A stretch of 64,000 nt of DNA from contig NZ_BJOV01000005.1 in the NCBI RefSeq assembly GCF_009932475.1, forward strand, positions 930,001-994,000, given 5' to 3'. Shown one piece after another: positions 42,933-64,000 of this stretch (positions are counted from its first letter, which is position 1; every line of letters starts with the position of its first letter). The notes beneath the pieces are model-generated. The model had not been told where the DNA came from. It was given only the letters and a program-made list of their open reading frames with translations, and searched no databases. Both the position numbers and the translations under genes were made by a program. This stretch comes from Gordonia spumicola (lineage in GTDB: Bacteria; Actinomycetota; Actinomycetes; Mycobacteriales; Mycobacteriaceae).

Positions 42933-43022
42933 GCCGTTGACCTCTCGCTCGGGGGACGGCTGACGCCGGTGAACCTACGTGTATCACGGCACCGTCGTGA
43001 CGCGTGCTACCTTCGGAAGGTA

Positions 43023-43169
43023 GTTCTCGGGGCGGGGTGAAAGTCCCCACCGGCGGTAGTGCCCTCCAGCAGGGACGAGCCCGCGAGCGCCCGCATCGGC
43101 GACGATGCGGGGTCAGCAGATTCTGGTGCGATTCCAGAGCCGACGGTCATAGTCCGGATACGAGAGAAC
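43023..43169 (+). promoter_or_regulatory. FMN riboswitch (RFN element)
   Basis: Classical conserved blocks in order: P1 arm GTTCTC (43023-43028), GGGGCGGGGTGAAAGTCCCC, ACCGGCGGTA, GCCCGCGAGCG, GGTCAGCAGATTCTGGTG, CCAGAGCCGACGGTCATAGTC, closing GAGAAC (43164-43169). It precedes ribE-ribBA-ribH and should shut them down when FMN is high. Confidence 0.95.
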
Positions 43170-43197
43170 GACAGTGCGGCACGGTGCCGTCACTGTC
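43170..43197 (+). terminator. Expression-platform hairpin after the FMN aptamer
   Basis: GACAGTG-C-GGCAC pairs with GTGCC-GT-CACTGTC, a stem of 12 bp with a small internal mismatch, placed between the aptamer and the ribE ribosome site AAAGGAGAG (43218-43226). It could be the conditional terminator; there is no U-run, so a translational or Rho-linked mechanism is also possible. Confidence 0.55.
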
Positions 43198-54682: not shown

Positions 54683-54722
54683 ACAGAGCCCGGCACATCC
54701 GATCGGATGTGCCGGGCTCTGT
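54683..54722. terminator. Perfect 20-bp palindromic bidirectional terminator
   Basis: ACAGAGCCCGGCACATCCGA and its exact complement meet at 54702/54703, between secG (+) and the end of the minus-strand accessory operon. The turn would be around CCGATCGG. Confidence 0.9.
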
Positions 54723-54730
54723 CGTATCCG

Positions 54731-55408
54731 TCAGGGGGCGACGAGGGCGGTGAAACGCACGCGGGAGCGGACGGTGAAGCCGAGATGCTCGTACAGTGCG
54801 ATCGCGCCCACATTGTCCGCGGCGGCGTGCAGGAACGGGACGGAGCCGGCGTCGACGATGTTCGCCGCCACATGCCGCACGAGGGCCGACGCCAAGCCCT
54901 GACCGCGCACCGACGGGTCGGTGCAGACCGCGCTGATCTCCGTCCATCCGGGCAGACGCAGGCGTTCGCCCGCCACCGCGACGAGCTCTCCGTGGCGCCG
55001 CACGCCCAGATATGTGCCGAGTTCGATAGTCCTCGGAAGGAACGGTCCGGGCTCGGTGCGCGCCACCAGATCGAGGATCTCGGGGACGTCATCGGGGCCT
55101 AGTCGGACCGCCCGATCGTCGCGCGCCGGGACGACGCCGTCGCCGACCATCTGGACGCCCGCACCCTCGAACGCGACAGACCAGCCGTCGGGCACGTCGA
55201 TGCCGTCGGGCGACCCGAACGCCACCAGCCCGCCGGAGCCGACGAGGGCCGCCAGATCGGCCCAGTCCGAGGCCGTCGGATCCGACGGGATCGCCGTGAA
55301 CGGAGACACGTCCGACGGGTAGCGCAGCGCCCGACCGACCCGCTCCGCGAAACCCGCGTGCGGTCCGGTGAGCGCGGCGTAGGCGGGATTGTCGAGGACC
55401 GCCGTCAC
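54731..55408 (-). CDS. GNAT family N-acetyltransferase
   Basis: 225 residues. N-terminal half variable (LDNPAYAALTGPHAGFAERVGRALRYPSDVSPF); C-terminal GNAT core with CoA-binding VCTDPSVRGQGLASALVRHVAANIV and DNVGAIALYEHLGFTVRSRV (FR47-like). Start taken as GTG 55408, overlapping the upstream monooxygenase stop (GTGA); ATG 55420 is an alternative. Last gene of the SAM-IV operon. Acetylation of an amino-acid-like sulfur substrate is inferred from context only. Confidence 0.82.
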   Translation of the reverse strand: MTAVLDNPAYAALTGPHAGFAERVGRALRYPSDVSPFTAIPSDPTASDWADLAALVGSGGLVAFGSPDGIDVPDGWSVAFEGAGVQMVGDGVVPARDDRAVRLGPDDVPEILDLVARTEPGPFLPRTIELGTYLGVRRHGELVAVAGERLRLPGWTEISAVCTDPSVRGQGLASALVRHVAANIVDAGSVPFLHAAADNVGAIALYEHLGFTVRSRVRFTALVAP

Positions 55409-56532
55409 CGCCGAGCCCATTCCCGCGCCAGGAGCTCGTACGACCGGACCCGCTCCGCGTGACCGTGTGTGATGGTCGTGACGACGAGTTCGTCTGCTCC
55501 GGTCGCATCGCGCAACCGCTCCAGGTGATCGGCGACCTCGGACGGCGTGCCGACGAACCGCGTGTCGACTCGATCCGCGACCAGGGCGGCGTCGTCGGCC
55601 GTCCACGGAAGGTCGCGCGCCTGGGCCGGGGTGGGATACTCGATCGCTCCCTGAAGGGTGCGGATGCTCCGGACCCACGGGCCGTAGCCCTCGGCCAACT
55701 CGACGGCCTCGTCGTGCGTCGGCGCGACGACGACGTCGGCCGACACGCTCACGTACGGTGCGTCCAGTTCGGCCGACGCGGTGAACGCCGTGCGATACGC
55801 GTCGACGGCCTCCAGAACGGTGCCGGGGCTCACGTGATAGTTCGCGCCGAACCGCAGTCCGTTCTCGCCGGCGACGACGGCGCTCTCGCCCGCACTCGAC
55901 CCGAGGATCCAGATCTGCAGGTCGGCGCCCTCCCCGGGAACGACGTGGGCCTCCTGCCCGAGCTCGTCCCGGTACGTCCCGGCGATCAATGCCAGGATGT
56001 CGCCGACCTGCTCGGTGTAGTCCTGTGCGGAGGCGCCCGGCAGCTGGAGAAGGCGCTGAATGAGGCCTATCCGCGGGCTGCCGAGAAGACTCGCGAACGA
56101 GAACGGCTCGGGGACGCGCAGGCCGTTCTCGGTGTGCCCGTCGACGACGGTTCGGGTGGTGGGCGCCGTCGACGCCAACACCTTCGGCGGCTTGCCGCCG
56201 GACCGCCCGAGCCCGAGGTCGATGCGCCCGGGGTGCAGTGCGTCGAGCAGACCGAACTCCTCCACGGTCGACAGCGCGGTCCGGTGACCGAGCTGGACGG
56301 CGGCGGTCCCGATCCGGATCGTCGACGTCGCGGCCGCCGTCAACGCCAGCACGACGGCGGGTGACGTGCCCGCGACACCCGGGTTGAGGTGATGCTCGGC
56401 GAACCAGTAACGCCGGTATCCGGCCTGCTCGGCGCGCTGCGCGAGGTCGACGGAGTTGCGCAGGGCCTGCGCTGCCGTCGAGCCGGTGGAGATCGGGACG
56501 AGGTCGAGCACGGAGAGATTCGTGGTGGTCAT
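55405..56532 (-). CDS. LLM class flavin-dependent oxidoreductase (MsnO8-like group)
   Basis: 375 residues, luciferase-like TIM barrel using reduced flavin. LDLVPISTGSTAAQALRNSVDLAQRAEQAGYRRYWFAEHH is the family N-terminus; ALHPGRIDLGLGRSGG and RFVGTPSEVADHL are conserved. Substrate cannot be read. Overlaps both neighbours by 4 nt, so it is firmly within the operon. No flavin reductase gene is present locally. Confidence 0.88.
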   Translation of the reverse strand: MTTTNLSVLDLVPISTGSTAAQALRNSVDLAQRAEQAGYRRYWFAEHHLNPGVAGTSPAVVLALTAAATSTIRIGTAAVQLGHRTALSTVEEFGLLDALHPGRIDLGLGRSGGKPPKVLASTAPTTRTVVDGHTENGLRVPEPFSFASLLGSPRIGLIQRLLQLPGASAQDYTEQVGDILALIAGTYRDELGQEAHVVPGEGADLQIWILGSSAGESAVVAGENGLRFGANYHVSPGTVLEAVDAYRTAFTASAELDAPYVSVSADVVVAPTHDEAVELAEGYGPWVRSIRTLQGAIEYPTPAQARDLPWTADDAALVADRVDTRFVGTPSEVADHLERLRDATGADELVVTTITHGHAERVRSYELLAREWARR

Positions 56533-57896
56533 GATGCGGCCTCCTGCGTCGCGACGCGGTCGGGGTGAGCGAGACCGAGGTGCTCGCGGAGCGTGGAGCC
56601 CTCGTAGTCGGTGCGGTAGACGCCGCGCTCCTGGAGGATCGGGACGACGCGATCGACGAACGGAGTGAGACCTCCCGGCGTGATGTGCGGAGCCAGGATC
56701 ACGCCGTCGGCCGCATCGTTCTGGACGAGTTCGTCGAGCTGGTCGGCGACGGTCTCGGGCGATCCGACGAGGCCGCCACGCGCGATCGCGGTGGCGACGG
56801 TCTCGCGTGCGGACAGTCCCTGCGCCGCGGCGATGCCACGCCACTGGTCGGCGATGCCCTTCGCGTCACGACCGAGCATCCGGACGCTCGCGCGGCCCTT
56901 GGAGACCGTCGACTCGCCCTCGACCGGATCGAACGTCGGGAACGGTCCGTCGGCGTCGAAGTCGGGGAGCGGCACGTTCCACAACTGTTCGATGAGCCTG
57001 GTCGCCGTCGCGGCGGAGAACTGTGCGAGTCGGACCTCGTGCGCGACGTCGGCGGCCTCCGCGTCGGTGTCGCCGATGATGAAGGTGACCGCGGGAAGGA
57101 TCAGCAGTTCGTCGTGGCGTCGACCGTATTTGGCGAGACGACGTTTGACGTCGGCGTAGAACTTCGTGCCGTTCTCGAGGTCGCCGTGCCTGGAGAAGAT
57201 GGCGTCGGCCTCGGCGGCCGCGAACTCGCGCCCCGCGTCGGAGTCGCCCGCCTGGAAGATCACCGGACGGCCCTGCGGAGACCGGGGGACGTTGAAGCGG
57301 CCCTCGATGTCGAAGAAGCGGTCCCGGTACGAGTACGCTCCGGCGTCGCCCCTGGTGAGGAACTCGTCGGACGCGTCGTCGGTCAGGTCGTCGTCGTTCC
57401 ACGAGTCCCACAGGGTGGTGGCGGCGGAGAGGAACGATTCGGCACGCGCGTACCTGTCCGATTCGGCGAGGAACCCGCCGCGGCGGAAGTTCTCGCCGGT
57501 GAACTCGTCCCAGCTGGTGACGACGTTCCAGGCGGCTCGTCCCGCCGACAGATGGTCGAGGGATGCGAACTGACGGGCGACCTCGTACGGTTCGTTGAAC
57601 GTCGAGTTGATGGTGCCGGCCAGTCCGAGACGGTCGGTGACCGCGGCGAGGGCGGCGAGGATGGTGAAGGTGTCGGGCCGTCCGACCACGTCGAGGTCGT
57701 AGATCTCGCCGTTCTGCTCGCGCAGTCGTAGGCCTTCGGCGAGGAACAGGAAGTCGAACTTGCCCCGCTCGGCCTCCTGCGCGAAGGTTCGGAAGCTGTC
57801 GAACTCGATGTGGCTGCCCGCCGCCGGATCGCTCCAGACGGTGGTGTTGTTGACGCCGGGGAAATGGGCGGCGATGTGGATCTGTTTGCGTGACAT
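56529..57896 (-). CDS. NtaA/SnaA/DszA-family FMN-dependent monooxygenase
   Basis: 455 residues, the usual length. IHIAAHFPGVNNTTVWSDP start; GRPDTFTILAALAAVTDRLGLAGTINSTFNEPYEVARQFASLDHLSAGRAAWNVVTS, ESDRYARAESF, RSPQGRPVIFQAGDSDAGREFAA and GGLVGSPETVADQLDE are family hallmarks. Relatives oxidise chelators, sulfones and S-alkylcysteines (for example CmoJ/YtnJ). Ordered 14 nt after a second LLM gene. Confidence 0.9.
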   Translation of the reverse strand: MSRKQIHIAAHFPGVNNTTVWSDPAAGSHIEFDSFRTFAQEAERGKFDFLFLAEGLRLREQNGEIYDLDVVGRPDTFTILAALAAVTDRLGLAGTINSTFNEPYEVARQFASLDHLSAGRAAWNVVTSWDEFTGENFRRGGFLAESDRYARAESFLSAATTLWDSWNDDDLTDDASDEFLTRGDAGAYSYRDRFFDIEGRFNVPRSPQGRPVIFQAGDSDAGREFAAAEADAIFSRHGDLENGTKFYADVKRRLAKYGRRHDELLILPAVTFIIGDTDAEAADVAHEVRLAQFSAATATRLIEQLWNVPLPDFDADGPFPTFDPVEGESTVSKGRASVRMLGRDAKGIADQWRGIAAAQGLSARETVATAIARGGLVGSPETVADQLDELVQNDAADGVILAPHITPGGLTPFVDRVVPILQERGVYRTDYEGSTLREHLGLAHPDRVATQEAAS

Positions 57897-57910
57897 GGGG
57901 ATTCCTCCTG

Positions 57911-59122
57911 TCAGGATGATGCGAGCGCGTAGCGGTTCGCCGGCCGGGCCAGGCCGAGCAGTGCGCGCAGCGTTGTGCGTTCGGGGTACTCGGTGCGGAA
58001 CACGCCGCGACGCTGGAGTTCGGGGACGAGGTCGTTGGCGATGCGCTCGAGGTCGACGGGTGCGACCGCGGGTCGGAGCCGGAACCCGGTGAGCCCGGCC
58101 TCGCGTCGCTCGACGAGGAGATCCGCGAGCCCCGCCGCGGTGCCGACGTAGATCTGTGCGTCGCTGCGCAGCGGACTCCCGGCCAGTTCGTCGAGTCGCG
58201 CGAGACGATCACGGGCGTCCTGGTCGGTGTCGCCGAGGACGATGACGAGATCGGCGAACACGTGGACCGTCTCGCCGGATCGACCGGCGGCGGACGCCGC
58301 GTCGACGATCGCTGTGACGATGCGGGCGGCCTCCTCCGTCGAGTGCGGCGTCACGAGGCCGACGTCGGCGGACGTCCCGATCAGCTCGTAGCCGCGCCGT
58401 CGGTGGGCGAGTGCGAGCACCGGCGGCTGGCCCTGCGGGGGACGCGGCGTGATCGACGGGCCCTTCACCGAGAACCGGGAGCCCTCGAAGTCGACGTAGT
58501 GCACCTTGTGCCGGTCGATGAATCGCCCGGTCGGGACGTCGCGGATCTCGGCGTCGTCCTCCCAGCTGTCCCACAGGCGACGGACCGCCTCGACGTAGTC
58601 GGCCGCCTCGTCGAACAGGTCGGCCTCCAGCGGCGACGTCTCGTCGGAGTCGACCGCGTTGGGGTCGATCCCCAGGGGAGCGAGTTCGCGGCGTCCCACG
58701 TTGGTGTTGACGTGCGGCTGCGCCGCGACCTGCACCCGCAGACCCGCCCGGCCCGTGCTCACGTAGTCGACGGTGGCGACGGCCTTCGACAGGTGGAACG
58801 GTTCGGTATGCGTGGTGACGGCGGTCGGGATGACGCCCAGACCCACGGTGGCCGGGGCGACACGTGCGGCGATCTCGACGGCGTCGAGTCGTCCGCGCAC
58901 CCGGTCGGTCCGCGAGTCAGGGACGAACGGATCGTCCGACTGGACGGTCAACGAGTCCTCGATGGTGACGAAGTCGAGAAGTCCGCGTTCGGCCGTGCGG
59001 ACCAGGTCGAGCCAGTAGTCGGCGCCGAACAGGTCGGCTGGTCGGAGGTTCGCCGCACGCCACGCGGCCGGGTGCCAGCCGGCTCCGTCGAGGGCGACCG
59101 CGAGGTGAAGTGTCGATGACAT
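57911..59122 (-). CDS. LLM class flavin-dependent monooxygenase (third copy)
   Basis: 403 residues. A distinct LLM subgroup with LHLAVALDGAGWHPAAWR, AERGLLDFVTIEDSLTVQSDDP, TAVTTHTEPFHLSKAVATVDYVSTGRAGLRVQVA and ITPRPPQGQPPVLALAHRRRGYELI. Not a duplicate of the neighbouring LLM proteins. ATG 59122 has AGGAGA upstream. It lies directly behind the binding-protein gene. Confidence 0.88.
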   Translation of the reverse strand: MSSTLHLAVALDGAGWHPAAWRAANLRPADLFGADYWLDLVRTAERGLLDFVTIEDSLTVQSDDPFVPDSRTDRVRGRLDAVEIAARVAPATVGLGVIPTAVTTHTEPFHLSKAVATVDYVSTGRAGLRVQVAAQPHVNTNVGRRELAPLGIDPNAVDSDETSPLEADLFDEAADYVEAVRRLWDSWEDDAEIRDVPTGRFIDRHKVHYVDFEGSRFSVKGPSITPRPPQGQPPVLALAHRRRGYELIGTSADVGLVTPHSTEEAARIVTAIVDAASAAGRSGETVHVFADLVIVLGDTDQDARDRLARLDELAGSPLRSDAQIYVGTAAGLADLLVERREAGLTGFRLRPAVAPVDLERIANDLVPELQRRGVFRTEYPERTTLRALLGLARPANRYALASS

Positions 59123-59136
59123 GGTGTCGTCTCCTG

Positions 59137-60096
59137 TCAGAAGGTGCTGGCCGGGTTGAGCTCGGACTTCGCCACGGCGTTGCCGGGGACGTTCCACTTG
59201 GCGAAGATCTTGGCGTAGTCGCCGGTGGAGATGAGCTTGTTGACGGCGTCGACGAGCGCGGGAGCTATCGGCGATCCCTTCGCGGTGACGAATCCGACGG
59301 GCGACTTGTAGATCTCGCCCAGGTAGCGGGTGCCGGGGATCCGCGACTCCGCGTACTGCAGCGAGAGCGACGGGCCGAAGTACAGGTCGAGCTTGCCGTT
59401 CTGCAGGCCGAGCGTGATGGGTCCCGAATCGGTGAAGTACTGGACTTGCCAGTCGGGCTTGCCGAGCGCGGCGCACACGCCCGCGTTCTGCTCGAGCAGG
59501 GTCTGGAACGACGAGCCGGGCGCGGTGCCGATCCGGTAGCCGCACGCGTCGCCGATCTGCGTGAACTTGTCCTGCGTGACCTTCTTCGTGCCGAGGAAGC
59601 CCTGTCCGTCCGTGACGAAGGTGGCGAAGTCGACGACCTTCTCGCGGTCGCGCGTCACGCTGAAGTTGGCCTGTCCCACCTGGTAGCGGCCGTTCTGCAC
59701 GCCGGGGAGGATGCTCGGGAAGGTGCCGTACTGGTAGTCGGCCTTCACGCCGAGGACGCGGGCGACGGCGTCGGTCAGGTCGCGGTGCAGGCCGACCGGT
59801 TCACCGTCGACCTCACCACCGAGCGGCAGATTCGCGAGGCCGGGGGTCTTGATGGTGCCGATAGTGAGCGTGCCGGACGAGGTCACGTCCGCGGGGAGCT
59901 TGGCTGCGATCGCATCGTCCTTCGCGATGTGCGAGACGACGTCCTGCGTCGGCACGGCGGGCGCGGTGCCGCCGTTGTCGGTGCTCGGGTCGGCCGATGA
60001 TCCGCAGGCTGTGAGGGTGAGCGCGGCGGCGGTGAGCAGTGCCGCTGTGACGGCAGTGAAACGGACCGTGCGACCGCGAGTACGCGATGTGGGCAT
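59137..60096 (-). CDS. ABC transporter substrate-binding lipoprotein, polar-amino-acid type
   Basis: 319 residues. Signal peptide with lipobox LTAC, lipid-anchored Cys 31. SBP_bac_3 fold: LTIGTIKTPGLANLPLGGEVDGEPVGLHRDLTDAVARVLGVKADY, VGQANFSVTRDREKVVDFATFVTDGQGFL, and LDLYFGPSLSLQYAESR. Ligand unknown; the SAM riboswitch and oxygenase neighbours point to an amino-acid-like organosulfur compound. Confidence 0.9.
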   Translation of the reverse strand: MPTSRTRGRTVRFTAVTAALLTAAALTLTACGSSADPSTDNGGTAPAVPTQDVVSHIAKDDAIAAKLPADVTSSGTLTIGTIKTPGLANLPLGGEVDGEPVGLHRDLTDAVARVLGVKADYQYGTFPSILPGVQNGRYQVGQANFSVTRDREKVVDFATFVTDGQGFLGTKKVTQDKFTQIGDACGYRIGTAPGSSFQTLLEQNAGVCAALGKPDWQVQYFTDSGPITLGLQNGKLDLYFGPSLSLQYAESRIPGTRYLGEIYKSPVGFVTAKGSPIAPALVDAVNKLISTGDYAKIFAKWNVPGNAVAKSELNPASTF

Positions 60097-60134
60097 GGTG
60101 GAGCCTTTCGGGAGAGTCGAGACGGGGAGTGGAT

Positions 60135-60896
60135 CTACAGGACGGCGGACACGAACGATCGCGTCCGCTCGTTGGCGGGGGAGTCCAAGACCTGGTCGGG
60201 CGGCCCGGATTCGACGACTCGACCGTCTTCGAGGAAGACGACGGTGTCGGCGACCTCACGGGCGAATCCGAGCTCGTGGGTGACGATCAGCATCGTCATG
60301 CCGTCGGCCGCGAGGTCGCGGATGACGGCCAGCACATCGCCGACGAGTTCGGGGTCGAGTGCGCTCGTCGGTTCGTCGAAGAGGATCAGGGTCGGGCGTT
60401 GGGCCAGCGCCCTGGCGATCGCGACCCGCTGCTGCTGGCCGCCGGACAACTGGCGGGGATACGAGTTCTCACGCCTGGCGAGGCCGACGCGTTCGAGGAG
60501 TTCGGACGCGTGTCGCAGCGCTTGCTTGCGGGGCACGCCCGCCGCGACCGGGCCCTCGATGATGTTCTGTGCGACGGTGCGGTGACCGAACAGGTTGAAC
60601 TGCTGGAACACCATGCCGATGTGCTCGCGCTGGGCGGCGATCTCGCGGGACGACCGTTCGCGGAGTCGGCCGCCGACGAGGCGGTAGCCGATGATCTCGC
60701 CGTTCACCTCGACGAACCCGGCGTCGGGCTTCTCGATGTGGTTGACGGTCCGCAGCAGTGTCGACTTGCCTGATCCGGACGGACCGAGGAGGACGGTGAC
60801 CTCGCCCTCGTTCACGTCGAGGTCGACCCCGCGGAGCGCCGGATGGGCGCCGAAGCTCTTGGTGAGTCCACGGACTCGGACCAGCGGGGCGCTCAT
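60135..60896 (-). CDS. ABC transporter ATP-binding protein, polar-amino-acid (HisP/GlnQ) type
   Basis: 253 residues. Walker A LLGPSGSGKSTLLRTVN, Q-loop VFQQFNLFGHRTVAQNI, signature LSGGQQQRVAIARALA, Walker B LILFDEPTSALDPELV, H-loop IVTHELGFA. Overlaps the permease stop by 4 nt. Confidence 0.95.
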   Translation of the reverse strand: MSAPLVRVRGLTKSFGAHPALRGVDLDVNEGEVTVLLGPSGSGKSTLLRTVNHIEKPDAGFVEVNGEIIGYRLVGGRLRERSSREIAAQREHIGMVFQQFNLFGHRTVAQNIIEGPVAAGVPRKQALRHASELLERVGLARRENSYPRQLSGGQQQRVAIARALAQRPTLILFDEPTSALDPELVGDVLAVIRDLAADGMTMLIVTHELGFAREVADTVVFLEDGRVVESGPPDQVLDSPANERTRSFVSAVL

Positions 60897-61876
60897 GCCC
60901 GACTCGAATCGGCGTGACGGCCGATGCGGCCGAACAGCGGGAGATTGTCGCGGAAGACCTGTGCGAACGACGACGGTGGTCGCCTGCGGCGGCCCTTCGT
61001 GTAGTGCCGTTCGACGAAGTACTGGCCGATCGACAGGATCGTGGTCAGGATGATGTACCAGACCGTCGCGACGAGCAGAAGCGGGATCACGAGGTAGTTC
61101 TGCTGGTAGATGAGCTGCGTCGAGTAGAGGAGGTCCTCGACGGCGATCACGCTGACGATCGACGTCGCCTTCAGCAGTCCGATCAGCAGGTTGCCCGTCG
61201 ACGGGATGATCGCGGGCATCGCCTGCGGCAGCACGATGCGCCAGAAGATCCGCGCCCGGGTCAGGCCCACCGACGCCGCGGCCTCGGTCTGCCCCTCGTC
61301 GACGGACAGGAGTCCGCCGCGGACGATCTCCGCGGAGAATGCGGCGACGTCCAAGGTGAGTGCGATGAACGCCGCGACCACACCGGTGATCAGAGTCGCG
61401 GTGTCGAACGTGACGAAGCTCGGACCGAACGGGACGCCGAGCGACAGCTGCGGGAACAACGACGCGAGCTGGAACCAGAACAACAGCTGCACCAGCGGCG
61501 GAACGGAACGGATGAGCCACACGTAGCCGAAGCTGATCGATGACAGGATCGGACTCGACGAGAGCCGCATCGCGGCGAGCACAACGCCGAAGGCGAATCC
61601 GACGACCATCGTCGCACCGGTGAGCCACAGCGTGAGCCAGAGGCCCCGGAGCACCGACGAACTGGTGAAGTAGTCGCCGACGACGTCCCATTGGAATCGT
61701 TCGTTGGTGACGAGCGTGTGGACGAGCATCGCCGTGAGCACGAGGACGACGCCGGTGCCGACCCATTGCCACGGGTGGCGCGCCGGGAGGACCTTCGCGG
61801 CGAGGAGTTCGTCGTCGCCGGGCCGGTGCACGGTCCCGGCGGGGACGGGTGGAGACGGGGATAAGACAGCAGTCAC
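60893..61876 (-). CDS. ABC transporter permease, polar-amino-acid type
   Basis: 327 residues. An N-terminal helix (WQWVGTGVVLVLTAMLVHTLV) then the HisM/GlnP permease core with five more; EAA coupling loop EGQTEAAASVGLTRARIFWRIVLPQAMPAIIP. The single permease probably acts as a homodimer. First gene of the operon: GTG start, GAAGGA (61885-61890) lies immediately behind the SAM-IV aptamer. Confidence 0.93.
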   Translation of the reverse strand: MTAVLSPSPPVPAGTVHRPGDDELLAAKVLPARHPWQWVGTGVVLVLTAMLVHTLVTNERFQWDVVGDYFTSSSVLRGLWLTLWLTGATMVVGFAFGVVLAAMRLSSSPILSSISFGYVWLIRSVPPLVQLLFWFQLASLFPQLSLGVPFGPSFVTFDTATLITGVVAAFIALTLDVAAFSAEIVRGGLLSVDEGQTEAAASVGLTRARIFWRIVLPQAMPAIIPSTGNLLIGLLKATSIVSVIAVEDLLYSTQLIYQQNYLVIPLLLVATVWYIILTTILSIGQYFVERHYTKGRRRRPPSSFAQVFRDNLPLFGRIGRHADSSRA

Positions 61877-61894
61877 TGCAGGAGTCCTTCATCA

Positions 61895-62012
61895 GAGTTC
61901 GCGCTTACCGTGGCGCGGGAGACGCACGGTCGGGTTCTCACCTGGAGCACCCCGCCGACGAGTGGAGGGTTGCCGGCCAGCAAGCCAGGGCTTGTCGCTG
62001 ACGCTCGTAACC
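61895..62012 (-). promoter_or_regulatory. SAM-IV riboswitch
   Basis: Read on the minus strand: GGTTACGAGCGTCAGCG, CAAGCCCTGGCTTGCTGG, CCGGCAACCCTCC, GGCGGGGTGCTCCAGG, TGAGAACC, and ACGGTAAGCGCG near the 3' end. These blocks follow the actinobacterial SAM-IV consensus closely. The permease ribosome site begins 4 nt past the aptamer, suggesting translational control. A TAACGT box (62020-62025, minus strand) would place the transcript start at the aptamer. Confidence 0.85.
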
Positions 62013-62138: not shown

Positions 62139-64000
62139 ATGACGCCCAGCCGAACCCCGGAGTCCGACACCGTCAGGCGAGCGATCGCCACGCCGATGGT
62201 CGAGCGGATAACGCTCGACGACACCGGCCGGGCGGCCACCGAACCGTTGCGCGACGACATCCGGTTCCTCGGCGGTCTGCTCGGCGACGTCATTTCGGCT
62301 CAAGCGGGCGACGAGGTGTTCGAGCTGGTCGAGGGCTCACGGACGGACGCATTCGGCATCCGCTATCGAGATGTGACCCGCGACGATCTGGCGGCGCGCT
62401 ACACCGGGCGCGACGTCGCGCAGTTGATGCCGGTGATCCGCGCGTTCACCAATTTCGCGCTGCTCGCCAACCTCGCGGAGGACCTCCACCGCGAGCGGCG
62501 CCGCCGGGTGCACATGCTCGCGGGCGACGAGCCGCAGGCGTCGTCGTTCGCGGCGACCGTGGCGCGTCTCGTCGCCGCGGGTCTCGACGACTCGCAGGTC
62601 CACGACGCGCTCGCGGACGCCTCGGTGATCCCGGTCATCACCGCGCATCCGACGGAGACGCGTCGCCGGAGCGTCTTCGACGCGCAGAACCGGATCAACG
62701 AACTGATGCGGGTCAGGGGCCGTACGGAACTGACCGCGACCGAGGACGCGGCGATCACGCGGGAGATCGCCAGGCACGTGCTCATGCTGTGGCAGACGGC
62801 GTTGATCCGGATGAGGAAGCTGACCATCAGCGACGAGATCACGACCGGACTCCGGTACTACGGTGCGTCCTTCTTCGATGTGATCCCTTCGCTGAACAAC
62901 GATGTGCGGACCGCGTTGCGGGACGCGTTCCCCGGCGCCGATCTCGACCCGTCGATCATCACGATGGGGTCATGGATCGGCGGCGACCGCGACGGCAACC
63001 CGTTCGTGACCGGCGACGTCGTCACCGAGGCCACGTCGGCGGCCGCGGCCACGGTGATGCGGCGGTACCTCGACGAGCTGACCGCCCTGCATCAGGAGTT
63101 GAGCATGTCGGTGCGCCTGATCAGCGGCGTGACCGACGAGCTGGCGGCTCTCGGGACCGGATTCGCCCCGGAGACTCCGGACGAGGTGGACGACGAGCCG
63201 TTCCGGTCGGCGGTCGGCGCGGTCCGCGCGAGGGTCGTGGCTCGCGCGACGGTCACCCTGGGCGATGACGCGATCGCCCCTGCGGATCGGGAGGTCGCCG
63301 CCGCGGTGGAACCGTATGCGGACGCCGACGAGTTCCTCGCGGACCTCGACGTGATCGACGCCGCGCTGCGCGGAGTGTCGGACGCCGCTGTCGCCGACGA
63401 CCGGCTGGCCGCGTTGCGGGAGTCGGTCCGTGCGTTCGGGTTCCACCTGTCCGGACTGGACATGCGTCAGAACTCCGACACCCACGAGGAGGTCGTCGGC
63501 GAACTCTTGCGGTGGGCGGGCGTCTGCGACGACTACTCGGCTCTCGACGAGGCCGGGCGCGTGGAGGTGCTGTCCGCCGAGCTGACCTCGAGGCGACCGC
63601 TGACCAGCCCCGACGCGCAGTTGAGCGAGTTGGCGTCGAAGGAGCTCGGGGTGGTGCACGCCGCGGCGGCCGCCGTGGAGCGCTTCGGTCCCAAGGCGGT
63701 GCCCGTCTACATCATCAGCATGTGTCAGTCGGTGTCGGACATGTTCGAGGCGCTGATCCTCTTGAAGGAGGCCGGACTCTACGATGCCGGCGACGCCGCG
63801 CCGTCGTGCAGCGTGCGGGTGGTTCCGCTCTTCGAGACCATCGAGGACCTGCAGGCGGGCGCGGGGATCCTGACCGAGGCCCTCGGTGTCCGGTTCTATC
63901 GGGACCTCGTCACCGCCCAGGGCGGCCTGCACGAGGTGATGCTCGGATACTCGGACTCCAACAAGGACGGCGGATACTTCGCCGCCAACTGGGCGCTCTA
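62139..64000 (+). CDS. ppc: Phosphoenolpyruvate carboxylase, 3'-truncated by the window edge
   Basis: 620 codons visible of an expected 900 or so. PEP + bicarbonate to oxaloacetate. LRDDIRFLGGLLGDVI, catalytic His motif VITAHPTETRRRSVFDAQN, GSWIGGDRDGNPFVT, FHLSGLDMRQNSDTHEEVV, VYIISMCQSVSDMFEALILLKEAGL, VVPLFETIEDLQAG, and active-site loop GGLHEVMLGYSDSNKDGGYFAANWAL at the edge. ATG 62139 follows TAGCGT (62127-62132), so a leaderless start is possible. In Corynebacterium ppc lies by tpi and secG; here the accessory operon separates it from secG. Confidence 0.95.
   Translation, partial: MTPSRTPESDTVRRAIATPMVERITLDDTGRAATEPLRDDIRFLGGLLGDVISAQAGDEVFELVEGSRTDAFGIRYRDVTRDDLAARYTGRDVAQLMPVIRAFTNFALLANLAEDLHRERRRRVHMLAGDEPQASSFAATVARLVAAGLDDSQVHDALADASVIPVITAHPTETRRRSVFDAQNRINELMRVRGRTELTATEDAAITREIARHVLMLWQTALIRMRKLTISDEITTGLRYYGASFFDVIPSLNNDVRTALRDAFPGADLDPSIITMGSWIGGDRDGNPFVTGDVVTEATSAAAATVMRRYLDELTALHQELSMSVRLISGVTDELAALGTGFAPETPDEVDDEPFRSAVGAVRARVVARATVTLGDDAIAPADREVAAAVEPYADADEFLADLDVIDAALRGVSDAAVADDRLAALRESVRAFGFHLSGLDMRQNSDTHEEVVGELLRWAGVCDDYSALDEAGRVEVLSAELTSRRPLTSPDAQLSELASKELGVVHAAAAAVERFGPKAVPVYIISMCQSVSDMFEALILLKEAGLYDAGDAAPSCSVRVVPLFETIEDLQAGAGILTEALGVRFYRDLVTAQGGLHEVMLGYSDSNKDGGYFAANWAL

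Follow-up and report, generated by a model that had tools for sequence, protein, structure and literature searches.

What does an operon do that joins a SAM-IV riboswitch, a leader RNA of the S-adenosylmethionine (SAM) type, to an importer and three proteins of the luciferase-like monooxygenase (LLM) family? The question is posed by a 64,000-nucleotide stretch of the Gordonia spumicola genome (contig NZ_BJOV01000005.1, positions 930,001 to 994,000, forward strand; here the window), in which seven minus-strand genes stand in tight series 3' of such a riboswitch. By NCBIfam and Pfam profile matches, their order is permease, ATPase, SBP_bac_3 lipoprotein, LLM1, LLM2, LLM3 and GNAT acetyltransferase, and all three LLM proteins match PF00296. 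The operon is almost certainly one of sulfur starvation, and its chemistry is on balance probably the oxidative cleavage of the C–S bond in cysteine-type thioethers, which would connect this class of riboswitch with a widespread but so far uncharacterised means of scavenging sulfur. A role in organosulfur uptake and oxidation had been proposed in an earlier note on this DNA, and its sulfur part is borne out by the riboswitch, by the near absence of cysteine and methionine from the LLM proteins and by the genes that follow the other SAM-IVs of the genome.

The match to the SAM-IV family is given in Table 1. PK-2, a pseudoknot described as a feature of SAM-IV RNAs (PMC6890682), can form in the window between UCGU of the P3 loop and GCGA of the 3' tail. 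Over 60 distinct rows, loop and tail form a mean of 5.22 pairs, which none of 500 tail shuffles reaches, with the caveat that mismatched loop-tail combinations average 4.57 pairs and that 77% of them reach four pairs, as against 56 of 60 for loops with their own tails. Folding of the leader RNA with pseudoknots excluded did not recover the aptamer fold. The ribosome-binding site is a short distance behind the aptamer and is perhaps where control is exerted.

The G. spumicola genome has three SAM-IVs. Of the two outside the operon, one stands directly before metY-metX and one directly before the gene for a SufS-like enzyme of the pyridoxal phosphate (PLP) type, which scores 280 bits to TIGR01979, below the cut-off of 475, and has an SGHK motif and the cysteine of RDGKFCAHP. 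In Mycobacterium avium, likewise, the gene for O-acetylhomoserine sulfhydrylase is preceded by a SAM-IV (PMC3774663), and the Streptomyces clavuligerus SAM-IV that precedes a class-V aminotransferase, also a PLP enzyme, and yields premature transcripts may be compared with that of the SufS-like gene; no LLM genes are named in the parts of that study consulted (PMC8269248). At the SufS-like locus of G. spumicola (L146:4949-8617), the SAM-IV stands 15 nucleotides before the gene, which is followed by a MarR-like gene (assigned by eye) and a transporter of the DHA2 type of the major facilitator superfamily.

The sulfur content of the proteins is evidence independent of the riboswitch and extends to loci that have no SAM-IV. 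After the start residue, LLM1 (0 of 402 residues) and LLM3 (0 of 374) have neither cysteine nor methionine, and LLM2 has a single methionine and no cysteine in 454. In comparison, the 44 other window genes of at least 150 amino acids average 2.09% (minimum 0.57%), a rate at which one such residue in about 1,230 has a Poisson probability of 2e-10. The seven operon proteins pooled stand at 0.55%. Among the 26 distinct LLM proteins compared within the genome, LLM1, LLM2 and LLM3 also rank at the bottom, the other 23 averaging 2.64% and the next lowest standing at 0.26%; the set derives from 33 PF00296 matches, of which 30 were extracted as loci and merged where copies were identical, and the remaining three, one being the rest of LLM3 and two being weak, were left out. 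Orthologs devoid of both residues after the start make up 78 of 105 for LLM1, 42 of 58 for LLM3 and 27 of 108 for LLM2. The operon provides an evident example of proteins that have shed almost all of their sulfur, as would be expected because they are used when sulfur is short. Oxygenases induced in Gordonia NB4-1Y on sulfonates are at 0.9-1.3% versus 3.0% (PMC7661421). One further LLM protein of the G. spumicola genome (L178, C5:1327177-1328142), at 0.26% cysteine plus methionine and not near any of the three SAM-IVs, is perhaps another sulfur-scavenging enzyme.

Beyond this genome, the link between SAM-IV and LLM genes is real but patchy. A search with a model (R1) built from 30 SAM-IVs, matches with E below 1e-13 being counted as strong, gave 17 strong matches at 14 of 80 named LLM1 loci, in Klenkia, Blastococcus, Streptomyces, Actinacidiphila and Hamadaea. 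When L017 and its two matches are left out, 15 matches remain at 13 of 79 loci, which together span 1.51 Mb and would be expected to have 0.28 judging from the whole-genome Rfam counts of 79 of the 80 named genomes (122 SAM-IVs in 666 Mb). Next after a SAM-IV may come the permease, LLM1 (in L016, L133, L136, L138 and L144), the SufS-like gene, a GST-like gene, a GNAT-like gene with the permease after it, or a small gene that precedes an Opp-type importer; in the majority of Streptomyces loci, 300-500 nucleotides separate the aptamer from the called start. At the loci of relatives, a SAM-IV occurs in 10 of 20, four of which were chosen for having it, so that the remaining 16 give six. Two relatives within the order (G061 and G088; L133 and L136) bring the SufS-like gene, the importer and LLM1-LLM2-LLM3 together in one cluster, with four SAM-IV matches apiece within about 17 kb. 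Within the genus, a SAM-IV lies within 10 kb of LLM1 on the same contig in five of 32 LLM1-bearing genomes (G000, G007, G037, G042 and G053), in one of which (G053, L129) it heads an Opp-type importer followed by LLM genes; six more loci of the genus (L158-L163) were scanned and gave no SAM-IV. A literature search of a limited collection, without Weinberg 2008, turned up no title or abstract linking SAM-IV to LLM genes.

Other SAM-IVs met in these scans precede a variety of genes. Divergent copies at L154:3456-3634 and L155:1818-1997 (68.6 and 58.7 bits, model R1) stand before two small uncharacterised genes that replace the SufS-like gene, and a weaker one at L153:7516-7628 (62.5 bits, model R1) lies ahead of genes without assigned function. 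In three Streptomyces loci (L025:5087-5231, L031:9232-9377 and L036:8777-8922), the SAM-IV precedes a cluster gene with a GST_C_2 domain.

How three LLM proteins might divide one task is a second question. The best phmmer match of LLM1 is BdsA (161.3 bits), and LLM1 falls below the cut-off of the NtaA/DmoA family TIGR03860 (244.7 versus 279.7 bits), which LLM2 exceeds at 394.6. The predicted structure is a full barrel (mean predicted local distance difference test score, pLDDT, 86.7) that matches 3SDO, BdsA and CmoJ at Z 41-42 (BdsA, Z 42). In BdsA, alanine mutants at V137, S139, R159, Y160 and L230 lose all activity (PMC5819316), and the chain numbering used here gave the expected letter at all nine positions of that study that were looked up. 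The first four of these become Q131, A133, L169 and F170 in LLM1 of the window, and among 105 LLM1 orthologs R159 survives just once, as does Y160; at the same positions LLM2 has V, S or T, R and Y in 109 of 109. In an alignment, most of the segment 292-373 of LLM2 has no counterpart in LLM1, and what is missing would be the lid. The LLM1 gene adjoins LLM2 on the same strand for 76 of the 79 genes at named loci and for all 26 in relatives, the three without an adjacent LLM2 being L046 and L053, which lie near contig ends, and L072.

A precedent is provided by NtfO1-NtfO2, a heterodimeric LLM pair in which NtfO1 has no lid, and by the homologous NgnO1 and NgnO2, neither of which is active alone (PMC8027225). 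Since LLM1 lacks the flavin residues kept in LLM2, yet is nearly always encoded beside it, the two probably form one heteromer, and because of the altered flavin site, this adjacency and the NtfO1-NtfO2 precedent, LLM1 is likely to be a flavin-less partner subunit. The genes point to an LLM pair in which one partner seems no longer to have its cofactor site. The description of the operon as having three different flavin monooxygenases is not supported in that form, as LLM1 is without the canonical residues for flavin mononucleotide (FMN) and is nearly always paired with LLM2. With NtfO1-NtfO2 and StmO1-StmO2 (7E36), LLM pairs of which one member binds FMN and the other has no lid, LLM1-LLM2 have in common the adjacency and the FMN residues in one partner, and LLM1 may be the member without a lid; those pairs serve in antibiotic tailoring, whereas LLM1-LLM2 are sulfur-poor and belong to a SAM-IV operon. 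BdsA/DszA, the dibenzothiophene sulfone monooxygenase, resembles the pair in the LLM1 fold and in the four residues kept in LLM2 and differs in its aromatic sulfone substrate, its tetrameric state and its position outside the group of LLM2 and CmoJ.

LLM2 and LLM3 can be placed by comparison with characterized enzymes. For LLM2, phmmer scores are 271.5 bits to CmoJ, 248.6 to BdsA and 168 to EmoA, and in the tree it branches with CmoJ and 3SDO with support of 95/92, apart from BdsA, DmoA, LadA, HcbA1 and RcaE; the phylogenetic check that the earlier note had called for thus comes out, for LLM2, on the side of CmoJ. LLM1 forms a separate deep group with two further homologs at its base. The tree has 55 rows drawn from 19 chosen loci and the window, eight other homologs and seven partial reference chains, several of which, including CmoJ, were flagged for unusual letter composition. 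A chelator role, in the manner of EmoA, was rejected on phmmer scores (80 bits to LLM1, 168 bits to LLM2). The earlier note had held that clustering with chelator monooxygenases would speak against its proposal; by score, EmoA is farther from LLM2 than are CmoJ and BdsA, and EmoA is not among the rows of the tree. LLM3 exceeds the cut-off of the MsnO8 family TIGR03558 (298.3 versus 166.95 bits).

These assignments lead to comparison with the sulfur-salvage pathways of Bacillus, of which the operon would be a variant. The ytm locus of B. subtilis includes an amino-acid importer; it shares with the operon an acetyltransferase and two kinds of LLM, and LLM2 branches with its CmoJ. It differs in that the operon has the extra LLM1 with its altered flavin site, has SAM-IV control and has no deacetylase. 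The likeness to ytm that had been noted earlier stands, by family, for the acetyltransferase (PF08445 and PF00583 matches, as had been proposed), the importer and the LLM set. The N-acetylcysteine deacetylase of the Bacillus loci has no counterpart in the operon, which has no such M20-family gene; six M20 matches lie elsewhere in the genome. The CmoO enzyme sulfoxidises N-acetylated S-alkylcysteine and CmoJ then cuts the sulfoxide (PMC10863075), and studies of the scm, yha and ytn loci attribute to them an acetylation and, as the last step, the deacetylation of N-acetylcysteine (PMC12757645; PMC9706529). A locus counts as scm/yxe, the B. subtilis set for S-(2-succino)cysteine, if it has three or more of five components, namely a monooxygenase, a GNAT, an importer of three parts, an N-acetylcysteine deacetylase and YxeQ (PMC9706529). 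Counted by family membership, the operon carries three of the five, sharing the GNAT, the NtaA-family monooxygenase and the three-part importer; it lacks the deacetylase and YxeQ and has two more LLM proteins. Among other actinobacteria, a proteome table for Rhodococcus IGTS8 lists three consecutive entries (peg5783-5785), namely an ATPase, a binding protein and a sarcosine oxidase, as well as the NtaA protein ScmK (PMC8557817), and sulfur-regulated monooxygenase genes are listed for G. terrae C-6 and G. alkanivorans 135 (PMC3868597, PMC11852219).

The importer offers a hint of the substrate. In binding proteins of polar-amino-acid (PAAT) importers, the carboxylate of the ligand is usually bound by an arginine and its free amino group by an aspartate. 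In the binding protein of the operon and its relatives, Asn144 and Arg151 are invariant in all 43 aligned sequences, whereas position 242 is P in 39, T in three and A in one, with no Asp at 242 or 241 in any of them; the AncQR and AncCDT rows carry Asp at the 242/241 place. Only half of what marks a binder of free amino acids is thus present, and retention of the carboxylate arginine with loss of the amine aspartate suggests a ligand that has a carboxylate but no free amine, for example an N-acyl amino acid. The three-gene importer itself is, by family, of the polar-amino-acid type that had been predicted. A permease of the window type was called in 22 of the 80 named loci, and at some loci the partner importer is Opp-type instead. 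The binding protein (window 59137-60096) is also related (131 bits, cut-off 900) to the C-terminal region of M. smegmatis StpK7. This kinase reportedly governs a BREX-like island (PMC13355554), and the ligand-binding fold may also serve as a kinase sensor.

The interpretation we prefer, and hold to be a little more probable than improbable, combines a sulfur-starvation importer with C–S cleavage of the CmoO/CmoJ type; its substrate, order of steps, heteromer and mode of riboswitch action are what we infer. At low SAM the SAM-IV leader would leave the operon on, and the ABC importer would take up an organosulfur compound that resembles an amino acid and has its carboxylate free, and the GNAT enzyme would acetylate this compound unless it is already N-acylated. 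LLM3 would oxidise the thioether in the role of CmoO, LLM2, with LLM1 as its partner subunit, would cut the C–S bond in the role of CmoJ using FMNH2 from a reductase encoded elsewhere, and an M20 hydrolase, also encoded elsewhere, would remove the acetyl group from the resulting N-acetylcysteine. Testable substrates for many actinobacteria, including relatives of desulfurisation lines, would be S-alkylcysteines and mercapturates. In actinobacteria, mycothiol adducts are cleaved to give N-acetylcysteine S-conjugates (mercapturates), which the cells export. A bolder version, which we consider speculative and rather improbable, closes this loop: starved cells would re-import the conjugates, the SAM-IV turning on an importer for N-acylated amino acids, and the nearly sulfur-free LLM3 with the LLM1-LLM2 heteromer would remove the S-substituent and so recover N-acetylcysteine, LLM1 being a flavin-less "pseudo-monooxygenase" kept across Actinomycetota.

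Several observations weigh against the interpretation of starvation import and CmoO/CmoJ-type cleavage. SAM-IV control is confined to the minority of named loci and of LLM1-bearing genomes of the genus counted above (14 of 80 and 5 of 32). Eleven other LLM proteins at the scanned loci are also sulfur-poor (0.62%), so that this property does not single out LLM1-LLM3, and the four importer and GNAT proteins, at 0.9-1.2% cysteine plus methionine, do not fall outside the values of other window genes. The operon encodes neither a deacetylase nor a flavin reductase; M20-like genes were found at just two of 118 loci (L029 and L085), by blastp with M20 queries from the same genome, which have limited reach. 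A GNAT of the window type was called in 14 of the 80 named loci, and acetylation may therefore be no fixed step. (At L016, an open reading frame after LLM2, unmatched by the gene caller, resembles a shortened relative of the window GNAT.) For the flavin site, BdsA H156 and L230 are mostly changed in LLM2 as well, and 63 of 105 LLM1 orthologs have Ser at the place of BdsA S139. The last of these also favors a view in which LLM1 works as an enzyme in its own right, its cofactor site re-shaped for flavin in another mode, for F420 or for no cofactor, and the reactions of LLM1 and LLM2 follow one another with no complex between the two proteins. Such an enzyme would account for the full barrel and for LLM1's own invariant residues (63 sequences), among them H17, W21, D56, E107-H110, R144 and D291; set against the near-obligate adjacency to LLM2, the example of NtfO1-NtfO2 and the inactivity of NgnO1 and NgnO2 apart, it seems to us unlikely.

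The remaining alternatives concern the substrate. Sulfonate loci use importers of the Ssu and Tau types, and the amino-acid type of this importer, its invariant carboxylate arginine and the grouping of LLM2 with CmoJ, outside which BdsA falls, count against a scheme in which the same starvation role is met by LLM enzymes of the DszA/SfnG kind that attack sulfones, sulfonates or xenobiotic thioethers and release sulfite rather than cysteine. We doubt this scheme, to which the closeness of BdsA to LLM1 and LLM2, the Opp-type partner importer at some loci and the rise of several NtaA- and LLM-type genes in Gordonia NB4-1Y on sulfonates (PMC7661421) lend weight. That the operon simply imports nutrients resembling cystine or methionine, while its LLM proteins perform an unrelated oxidation such as chelator breakdown, is very improbable in view of their extreme sulfur poverty, the distance of EmoA and the five loci at which LLM1 comes first behind the SAM-IV. 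It draws on the ATPase, nearest to cystine TcyN, and on loci (L148-L152) at which an importer stands under a SAM-IV without LLM genes. In G001, G028 and G034 the riboswitch heads permease, ATPase, substrate-binding protein and GNAT, and in G009 and G054 the first three of these, in each case without LLM genes.

Table 1. Features of the operon and its flanks in the window, in the direction of transcription
Feature	Position	Strand	Remarks
SAM-IV aptamer, RF00634	61896..62012	-	92.0 bits versus gathering score 38; E 2.4e-15; full length (model 1-116 of 116)
Leader, aptamer to GTG start	61877..61895	-	19 nucleotides; AAGGA Shine-Dalgarno-like site (sequence)
PAAT-type ABC importer permease, 327 amino acids	60893..61876	-	TIGR01726 above cut-off; PF00528
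ABC importer ATPase, 253 amino acids	60135..60896	-	Best NCBIfam model cystine TcyN, below cut-off (308.3 versus 406)
Substrate-binding lipoprotein, 319 amino acids	59137..60096	-	PF00497; AlphaFold2 (AF2) pLDDT 86.9, PAAT-type folds
LLM1, 403 amino acids	57911..59122	-	NtaA/BdsA-type barrel, altered flavin site
LLM2, 455 amino acids	56529..57896	-	TIGR03860 above cut-off; FMN residues V, S, R, Y present
LLM3, 375 amino acids	55405..56532	-	MsnO8-family LLM; TIGR03558 above cut-off
GNAT acetyltransferase, 225 amino acids	54731..55408	-	PF08445, PF00583; GTG start, 4-nucleotide overlap; ATG 55420 alternative
Perfect 40-nucleotide palindrome	54683..54722	.	Between operon and convergent secG; no T-run

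The genes are separated by gaps of -4, 38, 14, 14 and -4 nucleotides and a last gap of -4 with the GTG start of the GNAT gene at 55408 or -16 with the ATG at 55420. Of the run from SAM-IV to a perfect terminator that had been described earlier, the riboswitch and the seven packed genes stand, and the palindrome is at most a candidate terminator: it has no T-run beside it on either strand, and an intrinsic terminator with a T-run was rejected because the T-tract scan did not report one there. The sole minus-strand call of that scan beyond the operon is a weak 5-pair site at 54599-54586 (three sites in the region, against 1.9 expected by shuffling). A sigma-70 promoter scan gave no match, with 0.3 expected, and is uninformative here.

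Past the palindrome lies a convergent secG-like gene that follows tpi (assigned as secG by eye, with no NCBIfam match at E 1e-20), and on the other side ppc begins divergently at 62139. Operons of the same order recur between tpi-secG and ppc in two other genomes (G037 and G042; loci L126 and L127), with protein identities of 72-91%, so that the gene set is not a product of chance. In G007 the operon lies on the opposite side of ppc, by a 6-phosphogluconolactonase gene, and includes another set of importer genes as well as a fourth LLM. Genes in the scanned loci were called by codon usage; their starts are approximate and some genes were missed. Elsewhere in the window, an FMN riboswitch (97.7 bits) occupies 43019-43173 on the plus strand.

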